From: an uncultured Anaerolineae bacterium | GTDB lineage: Bacteria; Chloroflexota; Anaerolineae; Aggregatilineales; UBA2796 | Direction of reading: 5' to 3' | Assembly: GCA_938005675.1 (NCBI GenBank) | Contig: CALKXH010000093.1 | Location: 1-64,000, forward strand | DNA: 64,000 nt | Part shown: positions 11,390 through 18,795 of the stretch, piece after piece | Layout: each line of letters starts with the position of its first letter | Position numbering within the stretch: the first letter of the stretch is position 1 | Program-made: the position numbers and the translations under genes | Notes under the pieces: generated by a model | The model's database searches: none | Told to the model about the DNA's origin: nothing | What the model saw: only the letters and a program-made list of their open reading frames with translations

Positions 11390-12997
11390 CTAGCCTTCGT
11401 CGAGGCTCAGGCGGGCTATTGGCTGCACGGCGACCTCCGGCAGCAGCTCTTGGTAGGTCAGGACGTGAACGTGCGGCAACTCCACGTCGATCAGGGCGCG
11501 GACGGCGGCGCGCAGGTCGGGCGTGGTGACGAGGATCGGGGCGCTCTCAGCGGGGCGGGCGAGGTGAGCGCGCAAGGCGCTCAGCAGGCGCGCCCGCGCC
11601 CGCTCGGGCGCCTCAGTGACCGCCGCCTCCAGCTCAGGCGCGAGCAAGTAGACGCGGATGGGCGTCCCCTCGCGCGCCGCCTGCTGAGTCAGTTGGCGGC
11701 TGAGGCGCTGCCGCACAAAGGCGAGCAAGCCTGCCTCAAGGGGCGGCGGCGCGCCGACCTGCAAGCGCTCATCGAAGGCGATCTGATCGGGCGGCACGTG
11801 GATGTAGTCGTAGGCGAGGATCGCCTCGAGGATCAGGCGCATGTTGCGCACGCCGACTCCCTCCGCCAAAAGCGCGCGCAGCAGTCGCGCCAACGTCGGC
11901 GGCGCGATGCGCTCCTGAACGGCTTCGGCGAGGGCGGGGAAGGCGAGCCCGACCTGCTCGATCATACGTTGCGCCGCCGCTTGGCACAGGAACAAGGCGC
12001 TATAGCGGCGCAGCAGCGCGCTGACGTTCAGCACGAGGTAGCCAAAGGGCGTCCAGACGTAAAAGCCCTCAGCGCGGATGGCGTCGGCATCGGCGCTGTG
12101 CGCCAAGGCGAGTTGCCGTCCGTTGAGGGGGCTGTGGGCGGGCTGCGAGGGGATGCCGCGCTCGCTCAGCTGCTCAGGGCGCGCGTTGACCAAGACTTGC
12201 GCTGCGCTCAAGCCTTGCCACGGGGCGGAGGGCAGCTCGTTGAGGGCGAGCGCGAATTGGTTGAAGGGCAACGCCTCGTCTAGGGCAAAGGTCAGCGACG
12301 GGAGGCGGATGCCTAGCTCCTCGAAGAGCCCCTCGCGCATCAAGCTGAAGAGCGCGCGCTCGTCTTCGCCCGCCGACTCGGTCAGGGCGCGCAGAGTCGC
12401 GACGGAGCAGCAGATGGCGAGTTGTTGCGGACGCAGACGCGCCAAGAGCGCCTCGCCGCGCTCATCGGTCGATTCTTGCAGCACGGCAGCGATGGTCGAG
12501 GCGTCTCGCAGCGAGAGGCGCAACGCCAACAGCGGCGCAAGCGCCTTGCGCAAGGCGCTGAGCGGATAAGCGGCGAGCGCCTCAGGCAGCTGATCGCGGT
12601 AGGCGGCGAGGACGGGCTCGGTCAGCAGCTGGGCGGCTTGATCGCTCAGGGCGTGCTGCACAAACGCGCCGAAAAAGGACGGCATCCGCTCAGGTTGTTG
12701 GCTCAGCCACTGCGCTATCGCGCTGGCAGGGACGGGCGCGTAGAGCGCGCCGCTCTCTGCCGCGAAGAGTTGACTCTCAAGGCTATCGGCGTGGCGGCAC
12801 AGGTTGCCCTCGACGTACAAGGCGGCGAGCCCGTGCGGCAAAACGGCGCGCTCGACGGAGAGAGTCGGCGCGGCGGGGATGCCCAGCCGCGCGCAGAGGT
12901 CTTGCGCCGCCCCTTGCGCCGCCGCGCCGATGGCGGAGAGGTCGATCCCCTCGCCCAAGGCGCCATCAAGCTTGAGAGTCAGTCTGAGCGGCGTCAT
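11390..12997 (-). CDS. Soluble protein made of two tandem FlhA/SctV (FHIPEP) C-terminal cytosolic-domain-like modules
   Basis: LFEELGIRLPSLTFALDEALPFNQFALALNE...GIPSQPAHSPLNGRQLAL...LLRALLAEGVGVRNMRLILEAIL...APILVTTPDLRAAVRALIDVELPHVHVLTYQELLPEVAV follows the FlhA-C pattern; N-half repeats it (LSALRKALAPLLALRLSLRDASTIAAVLQ); no TM segment. Confidence 0.75.
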   Translation of the reverse strand: MTPLRLTLKLDGALGEGIDLSAIGAAAQGAAQDLCARLGIPAAPTLSVERAVLPHGLAALYVEGNLCRHADSLESQLFAAESGALYAPVPASAIAQWLSQQPERMPSFFGAFVQHALSDQAAQLLTEPVLAAYRDQLPEALAAYPLSALRKALAPLLALRLSLRDASTIAAVLQESTDERGEALLARLRPQQLAICCSVATLRALTESAGEDERALFSLMREGLFEELGIRLPSLTFALDEALPFNQFALALNELPSAPWQGLSAAQVLVNARPEQLSERGIPSQPAHSPLNGRQLALAHSADADAIRAEGFYVWTPFGYLVLNVSALLRRYSALFLCQAAAQRMIEQVGLAFPALAEAVQERIAPPTLARLLRALLAEGVGVRNMRLILEAILAYDYIHVPPDQIAFDERLQVGAPPPLEAGLLAFVRQRLSRQLTQQAAREGTPIRVYLLAPELEAAVTEAPERARARLLSALRAHLARPAESAPILVTTPDLRAAVRALIDVELPHVHVLTYQELLPEVAVQPIARLSLDEG

Positions 12998-15900
12998 CCT
13001 CTAGCTCTTCCTGTGCCAGCACGGTCAGGTACGGGAATTCGTAGCGCGTCAGGGGCGGCAGCGCCATGCACAAGCGCCAATCCGAGACGATCAGCGCCGC
13101 GCGCGGCTGCTCAGGCGGCAGCAGCGCCCGCAACGCCGCAAGGATTTCCTGAGCGACCGACGGCGGCATGGCGAGGTAGCTGGGCGAGTCGGCGACGAGA
13201 TGCTGCAGCAAGGTCGACTCGATCTCAGGCGGCAAGCGCAGAGTCGGCAAGTGGCGCGGCAACGCCTCTCGCAGGGCGAGGCGCGCCGCGCGGTACGCCG
13301 CCTCGAAGTCGGGCGCGCCCAGCGCCGTCAGCAAGCTGGGGCGCAACGGCAAGCCATCGCGCAGCAACAGACGCGCCAAGCGCAGCGCCGTCGCGCGCTC
13401 AGCCGTCGTGAGCGCCCCTTCGGGCTGCCACGCGCTCAGCAGATCGCTCAGGGTCTGCCAAGTCAGCAGATGCGGCAAGTTCTGGCGCAAGAGCGCCTCT
13501 AGGTGCAAGAGCAGATAGTCAAAGGGATCGTCCAGCAGCCGCAAGCGCAACAGGCGCGCCCGCGACGCCTCGCTTTGATTGATCCACGCGCCGCGCACCC
13601 GACTGAGCGGCTGGAGCGCCTCGCGCTGGACGCCGATCCCCGCCGCGCGCAACGTCTCAGGCGATTCCTCGCAGAAGAGCGTCCCCGTCGGCAGAAAATC
13701 GAGGGCGAGCGGCACTTCATCGAGGGCGATCAGGTAGGCATCGAGGGGCAGCGCCTCGTTGCGGCGCAGCCGCACGCCGGGCAAGCGGAAGCCCATCTCT
13801 TGAGCAAGGCGCGCCCGCAGATCGGGCAGGCGGCGCTCCAACAAATCCGACGGCGGGGCGTCCTCGGCGCTCAGCAAGCTCGGCGCGAGGTCGATCCGAA
13901 GCGGCGCCACCAGCGGGAAGCGCTCCGCGCCGATCTCAGTCAGGCTGAAGGTCTGAGCGAGATACTGCAGCAGCGCCGCAAAGAACGACTCGCCGATCTC
14001 AGGCGGCAAAACGTCGCGCAGCTCCGCCAACTGCCAGACGAACGGGACGTCGCCCGCCAAGGCGAGGCACGCCTCCGCCAACGCCGCGCCCATCGACGGG
14101 ACGCCCGCCGCCTTGAAGCGCTTGAGGGCGGCGTTGAACTCGGCGAGGTGCGGCTTGCCCTGCGCGAGGCGCACACAGGCAATGCGCGCGCGCAGCTCGC
14201 CCTGAAAGCGCGCGTCGTCGGGCAGGAATTCGCTCAGGGCGCGGTAGCGCTCCAAAGCGGCGCTCGCCTCGCCCTCTTTGAAGCGGTCGTCCGCCGCCTT
14301 CATCAGCTCGATCAGGGCGTCGCTCAGGCAAGCGCCCGCCTCCGGGAAGCGCTCTGGCTCGCCCAGCAGCCGTTGATAGCACGCCGCCGCATCTTCATAC
14401 CGTCCCGCCTCCATGTAGAGCCTGCCTAAGCTCGCCTGCTGCCCGATGAACTGCCAGCTCCCTTCAGGCGCGTCCTCGAGGCTCTCCAAGAGGGCGGTCA
14501 GCGGGAGGGGCTGCCCGATCTCCGCCGCCCGCTCGTTCAGACGCGCCTCGAAAGCATCGAGCAGGGCGTTGGCGGGCTCGGCGTGATCCCAATCGGCGCT
14601 GAGGCGGCGGACAGTCGGCAAGTCAAGGCGGATGAGCCGCCAATGTTGCTGCGGATTGCTGAGCAGCTCAGCCGCCTGCGCGAAAGCCGCCTCAGCGCTC
14701 TCCAGATCGGCGAGGGCGAGGTAAGCGAAGCCGAGATTGGCGTAAACATAGGTCGGCGACTCGCTCTCCTGCTGCAGGGCGCGCTCCAGATAGGGCAAGG
14801 CTTCCTCAGCGTAGCCGAGCATCACGCCCGCCCAGCCGCAGAGGTTGCCATCGGCGGCGTAGAGGGGCGAGTCGCGCTCCGCCCAGAGGTAGCGGTAGGT
14901 ATCGGCGGCGCGCTCGTAGTCGCCCAGCAGACGGTAGGCATCGGCGCGCACGCCCAGATACCACGCCAGCAGCGGATCGCTCGCCTCGATGGCGCGCCCG
15001 ATCAGCGCTAGGGCGCGCTCAGGCTGCTCCTGGTGCAAGTAGATGTAGGCTTGCACGGCGTCCGCCCACGCGCTGGGCTGCTTGGCGCGGAAGCGCTCTA
15101 AGAGCGGCAGCGCCTCCTCAAACTGACCGACGTTGGTCAGCGTGATGATCGAATCCTCAAGGGCGCTGTCATCGCCCAGCTGAGCGGCGCGCCGCGCCGC
15201 ATCGACGGCGAGGCGCTCCAGATCGAGCGCCCGATACGCCCGATTGAGCGCCTGCCAGCGATAGGGATCGCCGTCATCGAGGGCTAAGCCGCGCTCTAGG
15301 AAGGCGACCGCCTCCCAACGCAGAGTCTCAACGTCCTGAGCGGGCAAACGCGCCCGACTCTCGCACTGCAGGGCGCGCACATCGTACGCCCAAGCGTGCT
15401 CAGCATCAGGATGGCGCAGGGCGAAGCCTCTCTGGAGCGCCGCCTCGCTCTCAGCTAGGAGCGGCTCGTCCACAAAGGGGTGAGAGGGCAGCGCCGCCGC
15501 GCCCAGCAGCGCGTTCGCCAAGAGCCAGTGCGCCACGGCGCCATCGGGCTGCAGACGGCAAGCGGCGCGCAGCAGCTCCGCCGCGACCGCGTGCTGATTC
15601 AGCCACAGAAAACGCTTGCCCGCCTCAAGGTACGCTGCCGCCGCCTCCTCAGCCCGACCGAGCGCCTCAAGGACTTCGGCGCGCAGGCGATGGGCGATTC
15701 GGTCGGGCTGGGCGGTGTCGTCGCGCACGCCCAGCGCGAGGGCGCGCTCGGCGGCGCGCAATGCCGCCTCAAGGTCGCTGTGGCGCAAGCGCCGAACGGC
15801 TTGCAGGTACAGGTTGCCGCTCTGCGGGCGGTTGAATTGGCGCAGCGCCGCCAAGACCGTCGCATCGTTGCCCAACACGGCGAGGGCGTCGGCGTAGTGA

Positions 15901-16496
15901 TCGTCGGCGCGCAGCCACGCCCGCTCAGACTCTGCCAGCAAGCCCAAGCCGATGTGCGCATCGGGCGAGTTGTGTCGCAGCGCCCGCTGATAGTGCGCGC
16001 GCGCCGCCTCCGCCTCGCCCATGACGCGGAAATAGTCGCCCAGCGCCGCTTGCGCCAACGGATCGTCGGGCGCCAATTGGGCGGCTTGTTCAAGGCGGGC
16101 GCGGGCGAGGTCGGGCGCGCGCGCCAGCAGGGCGCGCCCCTCGCTGACCAGCGCCGCCACCGTCGGATCGGGCAGGTGCAACGCCGCGCGGAAGGCGCTC
16201 AGGAAGTCCCGCCAGAGCTTTTCTAACGCGCGGTGCGGCGCGTTGGAGAGCTCGGAGGGGAGCGCGCCCTCTTCGAGGGTCAGGGCGAGGATCGGCACGC
16301 CGTGCGTCTGCGCCGCCCGCCGTTCGGCGCTGCAAGTCAGACTCTCGGCGTAGCGCGGCGTGATCAGGGCGAGGAACTGATCGCACTCGGCGATCTGGTC
16401 GAGCGCGCCGCTGTAGAGCGCGTAGCCCGCCAAGGCGGCGCGCACAAGTTGCGCGTAGAGCGCGTCCTCAGGCGCGAAACTCAGGTAGAGCTTCAT
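12966..16496 (-). CDS. TIR-like / TPR repeat / FHIPEP C-domain-like multidomain protein (1176 aa)
   Basis: N-term MKLYLSFAPEDALYAQLVRAAL...CDQFLALITPRYAESLTCSAERRAA...VPILALTL (TIR-like); long TPR array; C-term LPDLRARLAQEMGFRLPGVRLRRNEALPLDAYLIALDEVPLA...LPPEIESTLLQHL...AALIVSDWRLCMALPPLTRYEFPYLTVLAQEEL. Confidence 0.75.
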   Translation of the reverse strand: MKLYLSFAPEDALYAQLVRAALAGYALYSGALDQIAECDQFLALITPRYAESLTCSAERRAAQTHGVPILALTLEEGALPSELSNAPHRALEKLWRDFLSAFRAALHLPDPTVAALVSEGRALLARAPDLARARLEQAAQLAPDDPLAQAALGDYFRVMGEAEAARAHYQRALRHNSPDAHIGLGLLAESERAWLRADDHYADALAVLGNDATVLAALRQFNRPQSGNLYLQAVRRLRHSDLEAALRAAERALALGVRDDTAQPDRIAHRLRAEVLEALGRAEEAAAAYLEAGKRFLWLNQHAVAAELLRAACRLQPDGAVAHWLLANALLGAAALPSHPFVDEPLLAESEAALQRGFALRHPDAEHAWAYDVRALQCESRARLPAQDVETLRWEAVAFLERGLALDDGDPYRWQALNRAYRALDLERLAVDAARRAAQLGDDSALEDSIITLTNVGQFEEALPLLERFRAKQPSAWADAVQAYIYLHQEQPERALALIGRAIEASDPLLAWYLGVRADAYRLLGDYERAADTYRYLWAERDSPLYAADGNLCGWAGVMLGYAEEALPYLERALQQESESPTYVYANLGFAYLALADLESAEAAFAQAAELLSNPQQHWRLIRLDLPTVRRLSADWDHAEPANALLDAFEARLNERAAEIGQPLPLTALLESLEDAPEGSWQFIGQQASLGRLYMEAGRYEDAAACYQRLLGEPERFPEAGACLSDALIELMKAADDRFKEGEASAALERYRALSEFLPDDARFQGELRARIACVRLAQGKPHLAEFNAALKRFKAAGVPSMGAALAEACLALAGDVPFVWQLAELRDVLPPEIGESFFAALLQYLAQTFSLTEIGAERFPLVAPLRIDLAPSLLSAEDAPPSDLLERRLPDLRARLAQEMGFRLPGVRLRRNEALPLDAYLIALDEVPLALDFLPTGTLFCEESPETLRAAGIGVQREALQPLSRVRGAWINQSEASRARLLRLRLLDDPFDYLLLHLEALLRQNLPHLLTWQTLSDLLSAWQPEGALTTAERATALRLARLLLRDGLPLRPSLLTALGAPDFEAAYRAARLALREALPRHLPTLRLPPEIESTLLQHLVADSPSYLAMPPSVAQEILAALRALLPPEQPRAALIVSDWRLCMALPPLTRYEFPYLTVLAQEELEDDAAQTDSQA

Positions 16497-17854
16497 GCCC
16501 CGCGCTCCTTGAGCAAGCTCATCATCGCCTCAAGCACGTCCTGCTGCTCAGCCGTGCCTTCGAGGCTGAATTGATAGCGCCACTCACGGCGCAGCTCCGC
16601 CAACCATAAGCTCGGCGCCAGACCCTCAAGGCGCTCGACGACTCCGACGGCGAAGTGGCGCACAGCGAGGCGGCGCGCCTCGTCGGCGATGCGCTCAAGG
16701 CGCGGGCGGGCGGCGATCAGCAGATCGTCGGCGCTCAGGGCGGCGTGATCGGGCGGCTCAAGCGGGCGCGCCGCGCCCTGATCGGCGGGCTGGATCAAGC
16801 CATCGGCGCTGTGCAGGTACAAGACGGGCGTCCCGAAGGTGCGGGCGGCGTGTTGGCGCATGTGGCTGAGCGCTTGCCTGCCCAGCTGCACGGCGTGATC
16901 GAGCGGCTCGCCGCGCAGCAGCGCCTCGTAGAAGACGCGGCTGAAATCGATGGCAGCCATGTTGGTGATCGGATACTGCATCGCCACGACCGCCTGCACG
17001 CCCCTCTGGACGAGGCGCGGCGCCAAGCCGCCGAAACTCTCGCGCAGATCGGCGCGCGCCCCCTCGCACAGGTGCAGCACCACCAAGCGCGGCAAGGTCG
17101 CGGCGAGGCTGCACCAAGCGGCGAAGTCGGCGTCGCTGCACCAATCCGCCGTCTCGTCGGGCTGCAGGAGCGCAATCGCGCCGCTGCCCGTCTCGGCGTT
17201 GAAGGCGCCGTGTCCGATGAAGTGCAAGACGTGCGGCTGAAAAGTCCGCAGCCGCTCGGTGAAAGCGGCGACCGTCGCCTTGCCCAACACCTCGACTTGC
17301 ACCGGGTATGCCTCCGAGAGCCGCTGAATCGCCTCGATCACGCGCGGCTCTAGCACCGGATCGAGATCGCGCGGCTTGGCGACGGCGACCAAGACGCGCA
17401 ACATCCCCGCTGGGCGCAGAGTCTGGCGGCTCTCGCGCGGGAAGTAGCGCGAGAGGACGAGATCGACGTGGCTGCACAGGAAATAATCGCCGCGCGGATA
17501 GTGCAAAAACTCCCAAGGCAGGCTGGCGAGTTCCGCCGCGCCCGCCTCAAAGCTGAGCTGCAGGCGCAAGCGCTCGCCGTTCGCCTTCGCCATGCTCAGC
17601 GACTCCTCAAAGAGTCGCTCGATCTCAAGGTCGAAGAGCAGCTGATACAAATGTTGCCCGAAGACGGCGATCTCTTGCGCGTCGCTGAACTTGTTGGCGC
17701 GCAGCCAGCGCTCGAAGAGGCGGATCGTGCGCCGAGTCAGGCTGCCGCGCTCGAAGCCGCGCACAGCGCCGCGCGCCATCTTCTCGTCGGCGCGCCGACG
17801 CGCCTGCAGGCTGCGTCCGTCGTTTTCAACGCTCAGGATCAGCTCGGCGCCCAT
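16493..17854 (-). CDS. CHAT domain (caspase-like) protease with extra C-terminal domain
   Basis: LPWEFLHYP, VLHFIGHGAFN (His), LVVLHLCEGARADL (Cys), GVQAVVAMQYPITNMAAIDFSRVFYEALLRG; ATG at 17854; ATGA overlap with next gene. Confidence 0.9.
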   Translation of the reverse strand: MGAELILSVENDGRSLQARRRADEKMARGAVRGFERGSLTRRTIRLFERWLRANKFSDAQEIAVFGQHLYQLLFDLEIERLFEESLSMAKANGERLRLQLSFEAGAAELASLPWEFLHYPRGDYFLCSHVDLVLSRYFPRESRQTLRPAGMLRVLVAVAKPRDLDPVLEPRVIEAIQRLSEAYPVQVEVLGKATVAAFTERLRTFQPHVLHFIGHGAFNAETGSGAIALLQPDETADWCSDADFAAWCSLAATLPRLVVLHLCEGARADLRESFGGLAPRLVQRGVQAVVAMQYPITNMAAIDFSRVFYEALLRGEPLDHAVQLGRQALSHMRQHAARTFGTPVLYLHSADGLIQPADQGAARPLEPPDHAALSADDLLIAARPRLERIADEARRLAVRHFAVGVVERLEGLAPSLWLAELRREWRYQFSLEGTAEQQDVLEAMMSLLKERGA

Positions 17855-17865
17855 CGCCTGCCGCG

Positions 17866-18795
17866 CTACAGCCGCGTCGAGAGGTCGTAGAGGTTGGCGT
17901 CGCGCACGGGCGCGCCCGCCCGCAAGAAATTGCGCAGGCGCTCGCCCAAGTAAGCGACGATCTCGCCCAAGCCCGCCGCCGCAAAGTTGAAATTGGCGTA
18001 GGCTTGCACCGCTGCCGCCACCTTCAGCTCGCTGACGGAGCGCGGCACTTGCAGCACGACTGCGAACTGCGGCACGCGCTCGCGGAAGAACTCCGCGCCG
18101 CTGACCCGCCAAAAGACTTTGTGCGTCTTCTCGCCGCTGTGCTCGATCTGGGCGCGCACGAGGCGATAGTTGAACGGACCGACGCTCACGCCGCCGCCCA
18201 GCCCGACTCCGGCGCCCGCGCCCGCGCTCCCGCCGATGTTGGGCAGGCTCAGCGCGCCGCTGTGCAGCTCGAACTCAAAATTCTGGTTCAAGCGCACGGT
18301 CGCCTCGGCGTTCGCCTCTAGCAAAGTCAGGAATTTCTTATCGGGCAGGATCAGGGCGCTGATCGGGCGCTGATCGTCGGGGGCGGTCGGGTTGAACTCG
18401 ACGGCGCACTCCACGCGCACGAAGGGCATGTTCGGGCGGGCGTGGTAGCCGACGGGCAGATGCAGCCAGTAGAAGTTGTAGCGCTCGCTCAGGCGCTTGA
18501 ACAGCTGCGGCACGGGCAAATTCTGCTCGGTGAAGTGCGCCTCCTCCAGCTTGAGGAAGTCCAGCTGGCGGCTGAGGAAGGCGCGCTGCTCGTTCAGCTC
18601 GGCGAGGAGCTGCTCGGCGGGCGCGAGGGGGCTCTCCATGCGCCGAGTCGTCTCGCCCATGCTGCGCCTGATGGGTTCTTCGCCCAGCTCGCGCGCCAAG
18701 CCGATGACGTTCTCGCGCACCTCCGCCATCAGGGCGTCGCGGCTCTCGCCGCCGAAATCGAACTCAAAAGTCAAGGGAGTGGGACTGTCAGTCAT
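17866..18795 (-). CDS. Conserved-looking protein of unknown function with Gly-rich hinge (first gene of TIR/CHAT/FHIPEP operon)
   Basis: ATG (MTDSPTPLTFEFDFGGE) at 18795; 11 bp from CHAT start; NIGGSAGAGAGVGLGGGVSVGPFNYR stretch. Confidence 0.75.
   Translation of the reverse strand: MTDSPTPLTFEFDFGGESRDALMAEVRENVIGLARELGEEPIRRSMGETTRRMESPLAPAEQLLAELNEQRAFLSRQLDFLKLEEAHFTEQNLPVPQLFKRLSERYNFYWLHLPVGYHARPNMPFVRVECAVEFNPTAPDDQRPISALILPDKKFLTLLEANAEATVRLNQNFEFELHSGALSLPNIGGSAGAGAGVGLGGGVSVGPFNYRLVRAQIEHSGEKTHKVFWRVSGAEFFRERVPQFAVVLQVPRSVSELKVAAAVQAYANFNFAAAGLGEIVAYLGERLRNFLRAGAPVRDANLYDLSTRL

Follow-up and report, generated by a model that had tools for sequence, protein, structure and literature searches.

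What is the cytosolic domain of the export-gate protein FlhA/SctV doing in an operon with a CHAT protease, in a genome that has no other FlhA/SctV gene? The question is raised by a stretch of 64,000 nucleotides of contig CALKXH010000093.1 from an uncultured Anaerolineae bacterium (Chloroflexota), the whole of which we refer to as the window. Four open reading frames occupy positions 11390-18795 on its minus strand. Gene 1 (17866..18795; P0001, 309 aa) belongs to a family that we call A and is a predicted cytosolic beta-barrel pore-forming protein and a swappable partner of CHAT. Gene 2 (16493..17854; P0002, 453 aa) encodes the CHAT cysteine protease, gene 3 (12966..16496; CF1, P0003, 1176 aa) a protein with a TIR-like N-terminus, a TPR array and a FlhA/SctV cytosolic domain (FlhA-C), and gene 4 (11390..12997; CF2, P0004, 535 aa) a further FlhA-C protein. 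The coordinates bear out an earlier note on this DNA, made from the letters alone, which had described four tightly coupled minus-strand genes: gene 1 and the CHAT gene are 11 bp apart, the CHAT gene overlaps gene 3 by ATGA (4 bp, 16493-16496) and gene 3 overlaps gene 4 by 32 bp (12966-12997). The guanine-cytosine content by codon position is coding-like in all four genes, with 85-90% at the third position, and the set lies far above chance since it is syntenic in relatives as well as in other phyla. A candidate promoter that the same note had placed just upstream was not recovered by a consensus scan, a result that says little either way.

Similarity to FHIPEP in both proteins, also proposed in the earlier note, is confirmed by Pfam with E 4.8e-21 for residues 863-1168 of P0003 (12993..13910, minus strand; PF00771 positions 330-655 of 657) and E 2.1e-34 for residues 181-522 of P0004 (11432..12460, minus strand; positions 320-656 of 657). 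Both matches comprise the complete cytosolic D1-D4 part of FlhA/SctV. The membrane domain at the N-terminus, which bears the FHIPEP signature, is missing, as the profile match begins at position 330 in CF1 and 320 in CF2, and none of the four operon proteins has a hydrophobic stretch of membrane-helix grade. The CF2 family profile matched the SctV structure 6wa6 at E 1e-56 and other SctV/FlhA-C structures more weakly, and the TPRs of gene 3 gave Pfam E-values down to 5e-11. Gene 4 had been described as a double FHIPEP-C gene. This stands for the C-terminal copy and has moderate support for the N-terminal one, where residues 1-185 of P0004 align to the FHIPEP-C of the same protein (profile-profile comparison, 91% probability, E 1e-6, 174 columns); gene 4 probably carries a degenerate N-terminal FlhA-C-like copy.

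The FlhA/SctV cytosolic module forms nonameric rings in export gates. The window genome (3.19 Mb, 94% complete) contains neither another FlhA/SctV (FHIPEP) gene nor FliP, in agreement with the claim that there is no type III secretion context. A third FHIPEP match in this genome, on contig C85, was weak, turned out to be NusA and was set aside, and so were most matches of the FHIPEP profile in the phylum, which fell in reading frames of about 700 aa, the length to be expected for the flagellar protein. A search for FliP in 18 host genomes, namely the 17 with the system described below and L073, whose contig stops after CHAT, came up empty in 15. In a tree of FlhA-C sequences, some branches of which are long, CF1 and CF2 each form one clade (100/99), apart from SctV (96/90) and FlhA (100/100). 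Because each position in the operon is its own clade, the divergence of CF1 and CF2 predates the spread of the system. As judged from sequence, FlhA/SctV-C modules occur here outside secretion. The earlier proposal that the module was taken out of secretion and coupled to TIR and CHAT is upheld for the absence of secretion and for CHAT, and is not supported for TIR as a core part, as discussed below.

The core order CHAT, TPR-FlhA-C (CF1), FlhA-C (CF2) was found in at least 17 genomes of at least five phyla, mostly without type III secretion, and the cross-phylum synteny of FHIPEP-C with CHAT that the note had envisaged is thereby observed. The survey was seeded with CHAT, covered 84,980 species genomes and was read with custom hidden Markov models in the best 80 CHAT loci, so that both the frequency and the phyla given here are minimum estimates. 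The 17 genomes are that of the window, three others of its genus, G007 (L016, a fragment), two of the sister genus, L067, L062 and eight from the survey. Within the window's genus the whole operon is retained (L013 and L015; L014 begins inside gene 3), the sister genus (L017, L018) keeps the triplet of CHAT, TPR-FHIPEP and FHIPEP at 25-30% identity, and L067, from another chloroflexot family, has four of four genes with gene 1 being 29% identical. L062, in which the reading frame of CHAT is broken and that of the TPR gene shortened (decay or assembly error), counts as supporting synteny only. Survey triplets were found in Chloracidobacterium sp. UBA7656 (L075), a deltaproteobacterial metagenome-assembled genome (MAG; L076), Anaerolinea sp. 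(L077), Geodermatophilus obscurus DSM 43161 (L078, a record so named and without a metagenome-assembly label) and three Chloroflexi MAGs (L079, L125, L145); an Opitutales MAG (L099) was also found, but the second FlhA-C gene is missing from its contig. The window CHAT is 47% identical to an Acidobacteriota protein versus 25-27% to those of the other genus of its own family. This departure of identity from taxonomy, together with the lack of CF2 in 40 relatives of the Geodermatophilus genome, suggests that the system spread horizontally. In L145 an ORF of 176 aa without a Pfam match (L145:7370-7900) lies directly upstream of the A-CHAT-CF1-CF2 operon and is a possible extra component.

Gene 2 matches the CHAT family (PF12770) at E 8.8e-28, with 98 bits versus a cut-off of 24, and the CHAT protein of PDB 8tl0 at E 2e-6. 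An alignment of 21 CHATs places the catalytic residues at His215 (LHFIGHG; 17210..17212, minus strand) and Cys263 (LHLCEG; 17066..17068, minus strand), and this dyad is retained by the window CHAT and by those of most systems. Some loci contain an intact CHAT adjoining one without Cys, namely L077:8887-11456, L078:7981-11606 and the FlhA-free L104:3339-6766, and the second CHAT of L078 has lost His besides Cys. Such active/inactive pairs would recall the regulation of caspases by pseudo-caspases. C-terminal CxxC pairs resembling a zinc ribbon were seen in the CHATs L067:13365-14912, L145:8878-10371, L071:9732-11732 and L125:1112-2656, and the window's genome encodes two more CHAT genes elsewhere (G000:C135:20931-21743 and G000:C109:27137-27613).

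The gene that precedes CHAT varies and is family A, family B or none. Family A precedes CHAT in the window's genus, in L067 and in L145, and also in loci where FlhA-C was not detected (L071, L104, L113, L114, L117, L124, L148, L151); its homologues always occur beside CHAT or with conflict genes. The protein of gene 1, which the earlier note had regarded as an orphan, is a swappable CHAT partner common to known conflict loci. Family B (about 360 aa) takes the place of A in L075, L076, L079, L099 and L062, is 32-56% identical across phyla and has no detectable similarity to A. In an Anabaena cylindrica plasmid (pANACY.03, L160:8001-14074) and in Chloroflexi MAGs (L104:2270-12836, L113, L114), A and one or two CHATs stand without FlhA-C in AAA/MoxR-VWA_CoxE loci, those of L104 and L160 occurring with AAA/MoxR-type ATPases, VWA_CoxE and EAD7- or iSTAND-bearing proteins; in L124, A-CHAT is accompanied by an EAD10 protein. 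On a Pseudanabaena plasmid (L154:9995-12298), family B is accompanied by VMAP-C, caspases and a MoxR ATPase; it adjoins an nSTAND1 protein in L163:8963-13127 and occurs further at L155:10067-11314 and L156:9857-11023, so that its loci comprise caspases plus MoxR/VMAP, nSTAND1, or a nearby C1 peptidase. It is carried by plasmids as well as chromosomes, is unnamed in Pfam and is a widespread conflict-system partner. Because A and B stand in these other loci with MoxR/vWA, STAND and VMAP genes, FlhA-C/TPR appears to occupy the place of their nucleoside triphosphatase (NTPase) switch. Searches of viral contigs with A and B and of phages with B were empty, and nothing in a library of viral structures matched at E <= 0.001.

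Gene 1 had no match in Pfam, PADLOC or NCBIfam. Its AlphaFold2 (AF2) model, built from 14 sequences, reached a predicted local distance difference test score (pLDDT) of 71.6 and a predicted template modelling score of 0.72. In a Foldseek search with this model, ranks 1-38 were all members of the alpha-hemolysin/leukocidin/NetF pore-former family (best E 4e-6), and VIA aligned 183 residues between 70 and 309 with Z 12.3; its first 33 rows were likewise hemolysin/leukocidin proteins, and an unrelated fold first appeared at Z 10.2. Gasdermin was absent among the listed VIA fold matches, which excludes nothing. The model thus gives gene 1 a predicted hemolysin/leukocidin pore-former fold. Residues 180-210 (18166..18258, minus strand) are Gly/Ser-rich, have pLDDT <50 and fall inside the fold match, at what we take to be the position of the membrane hairpin (prestem) in this family. 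On the Kyte-Doolittle scale an alternation of hydrophobicity is seen at 186-206 (P0001, p<0.001; 6 representatives, Fisher 8e-6). The test for this was devised after the sequence was seen, and it also scored a predicted strand pair, one of its three controls, as significant; the hairpin gave a negative result when its hydrophobic moment was tested on the Eisenberg scale. No signal-peptide-like N-terminus and no membrane helix were seen in gene 1. In the model, helices 19-37 and 59-69 border the low-confidence residues 40-56, a candidate for a cleavable pro-region.

The explanation that we prefer, and hold to be evenly balanced between right and wrong, is a system of cell suicide or immunity, spread by horizontal transfer and executed by a protease, with an FlhA-C platform, a CHAT switch and an executioner that is either A, as a pore former, or B. 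In its favour are the cross-phylum synteny, the lack of FliP in most hosts, the match of FlhA-C to solved SctV/FlhA-C structures, the separate clades of CF1 and CF2, the mostly intact CHAT dyad, the recurrence of A and B with CHAT/caspase or STAND proteins in conflict loci (some of them on plasmids), the modelled fold of A, and a patchy distribution with identities that cross phyla. The reused piece of secretion machinery most likely acts as a sensing or assembly platform. What the sequences show is the composition, gene order and conservation of the operon, its catalytic dyad and the company of conflict genes; a course of ring assembly, CHAT activation, cleavage and pore formation is what we infer. 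A ligand would be sensed via the TPR array and/or the docking surfaces of FlhA-C, CF1 and CF2 would assemble into an oligomeric platform or sensor, and assembly or ligand binding would switch CHAT on. CHAT would then cut the product of gene 1 or its counterpart, cleaving A or acting on B. In the window, the freed hemolysin-like cytosolic pore former would insert into the cell's own membrane and the cell would die, a release that may be compared with that of gasdermin by caspase, and in the window's genus the TIR-like domain may add an NADase or signalling output. A sharper version, put forward tentatively and open to doubt, is a bacterial 'inflammasome' in which a ring of soluble FlhA/SctV-C would sense infection through the TPRs, activate CHAT and free the hemolysin-fold pore former or B, killing the cell from inside. 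Several observations weigh against protease-executed suicide. The CHATs of L017 and L018 have lost both catalytic residues and that of L125 its Cys, and in these FlhA-C systems it is the only CHAT; neither A nor B was detected in L077, L078, L017, L018 or L125. The pore-former fold comes from a moderate-confidence model (pLDDT 71.6), the Foldseek TM-scores are only about 0.3, and PDB sequences searched with the profile of family A yield no pore former. Finally, the window locus is surrounded by housekeeping genes, and a look for the defence-island setting that the earlier note had listed as a check revealed no coherent island around it. The gene following the operon is FAD-dependent, as in the genus loci L013 and L015.

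The view closest to that of the earlier note is that ligand-bound TPR/FlhA-C activates a TIR NADase at the N-terminus of gene 3 while CHAT regulates, and we regard it as very unlikely. The TIR-like N-terminus comprises residues 1-108 of gene 3 (16173..16496, minus strand). A TIR_2 match on the first 130 residues recurs in gene 3 and two genus orthologues at E 6e-5 to 1e-4, and a C-x-x-E58 pattern is kept in all three, E58 being presumably at the place of the TIR catalytic glutamate. The scores (23.3-23.9 bits) nevertheless lie below the curated cut-off of 28 bits, and the match spans profile positions 43-108, leaving the first third of the domain uncovered. Neither structure prediction nor structure databases help, since the AF2 model of this region (3 sequences) had a pLDDT of 47 and was not used, and no PDB sequence was matched. 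CF1 orthologues sampled outside the window's genus gave no TIR match and have a helical or TPR N-terminus instead. A TIR domain in gene 3 is plausible from its sequence but peripheral and outside the core, and a TIR effector as the general mechanism is ruled out because the match is weak and confined to the genus and other lineages have other N-termini. In L013:11870-12259, the corresponding region of a genus orthologue, there is also a very weak DUF4062 match (E 0.25); a recent report presents DUF4062 proteins as TIR-like NADases (PMC13174449).

Regulated proteolysis without a lethal outcome would have FlhA-C/TPR bring clients to CHAT for the control of envelope, division or differentiation, in the manner of HetF or separase, with A and B as adaptors, inhibitors or sensors. 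P0002 is distantly similar to HetF (E 2e-13), housekeeping genes flank the window locus, the operon is stably and vertically retained within the genus, and two papers describe FlhA-C in secretion as a docking platform for chaperone-client complexes (PMC8166844, PMC5932034). A patchy distribution that crosses phyla, the presence of A and B in recognised conflict loci and the modelled fold of A speak against it, and we consider it rather improbable. A and B might alternatively be the sensors, for example receptors of membrane damage or phage proteins, with the FlhA-C proteins as substrates or outputs of CHAT. That A and B are swapped around constant core genes, as sensors often are, is compatible with this; in the known precedent, however, the parts swapped beside a protease are effectors (PMC12799240), and the modelled fold of A suggests membrane insertion, which together make sensors unlikely. 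A remnant of a lost flagellum or injectisome is hardly credible. The CF1 and CF2 modules are genuine FlhA/SctV homologues, but they have no membrane half, FliP is missing from most hosts as noted above, and two distinct soluble clades stand beside CHAT in an order kept across five phyla, a synteny and phylogeny that already contradict this origin.

Compared with known systems, the proposed system would be of a familiar kind, protease-executed conflict, with an FlhA-C platform for which we know of no precedent in that role. The export gate of FlhA/SctV shares the complete D1-D4 domain by sequence homology, whereas the operon has two soluble paralogues without the membrane half, a TPR fusion, a CHAT gene and mostly no secretion system in the genome. 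The ternary vWA-MoxR, VMAP and iSTAND systems (PMC7159879, where FlhA is not mentioned) are likewise modular and multi-gene and have families A and B and CHAT or caspase in common with it; here the TPR-FlhA-C pair replaces MoxR, vWA and VMAP/iSTAND, the operon has no NTPase, and Pfam found no MoxR ATPase, vWA protein or third component among the four window genes. Craspase (type III-E TPR-CHAT, PMC9729208) and SAVED-CHAT also combine a sensor-driven CHAT protease with TPRs. In contrast to Craspase, TPR and CHAT are encoded by separate genes and a PADLOC scan of the four operon genes gave no Cas match; P0002 matches the PADLOC model SAVED_CHAT at 8e-17 (positions 65-252 of 498), but the operon has no SAVED domain in the Pfam scan. 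Bacterial gasdermin-protease operons (PMC9079055), with a pore-forming protein gene beside a caspase-fold protease, serve as a working analogy, although the model of gene 1 matches hemolysin/leukocidin folds and the platform is FlhA-C. In the nuclease-protease pairs of Hachiman/AVAST and canu (PMC12799240), an interchangeable, usually upstream pro-effector and its activating protease serve several sensing systems; their effector fold differs, their proteases are trypsin-like or caspases rather than CHAT, and cleavage in our operon would be by analogy. A, B, CF2 and the FlhA-C portion of CF1 are without a counterpart in PADLOC, and among open-licence papers none was found in which FlhA/FHIPEP is linked to CHAT or to a death system, in accordance with the earlier note, which knew of no characterised system so composed; absence from these sources is not proof.

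We found no description of the FlhA/SctV cytosolic domain being used outside secretion; two distinct paralogues of it are kept here across five phyla, and two unnamed families, A and B, travel with CHAT or caspase proteases. If the proposed mechanism is true, a ring-forming piece of the export gate can replace a MoxR or STAND NTPase switch, and a hemolysin-like pore former would join intracellular, protease-gated bacterial suicide.
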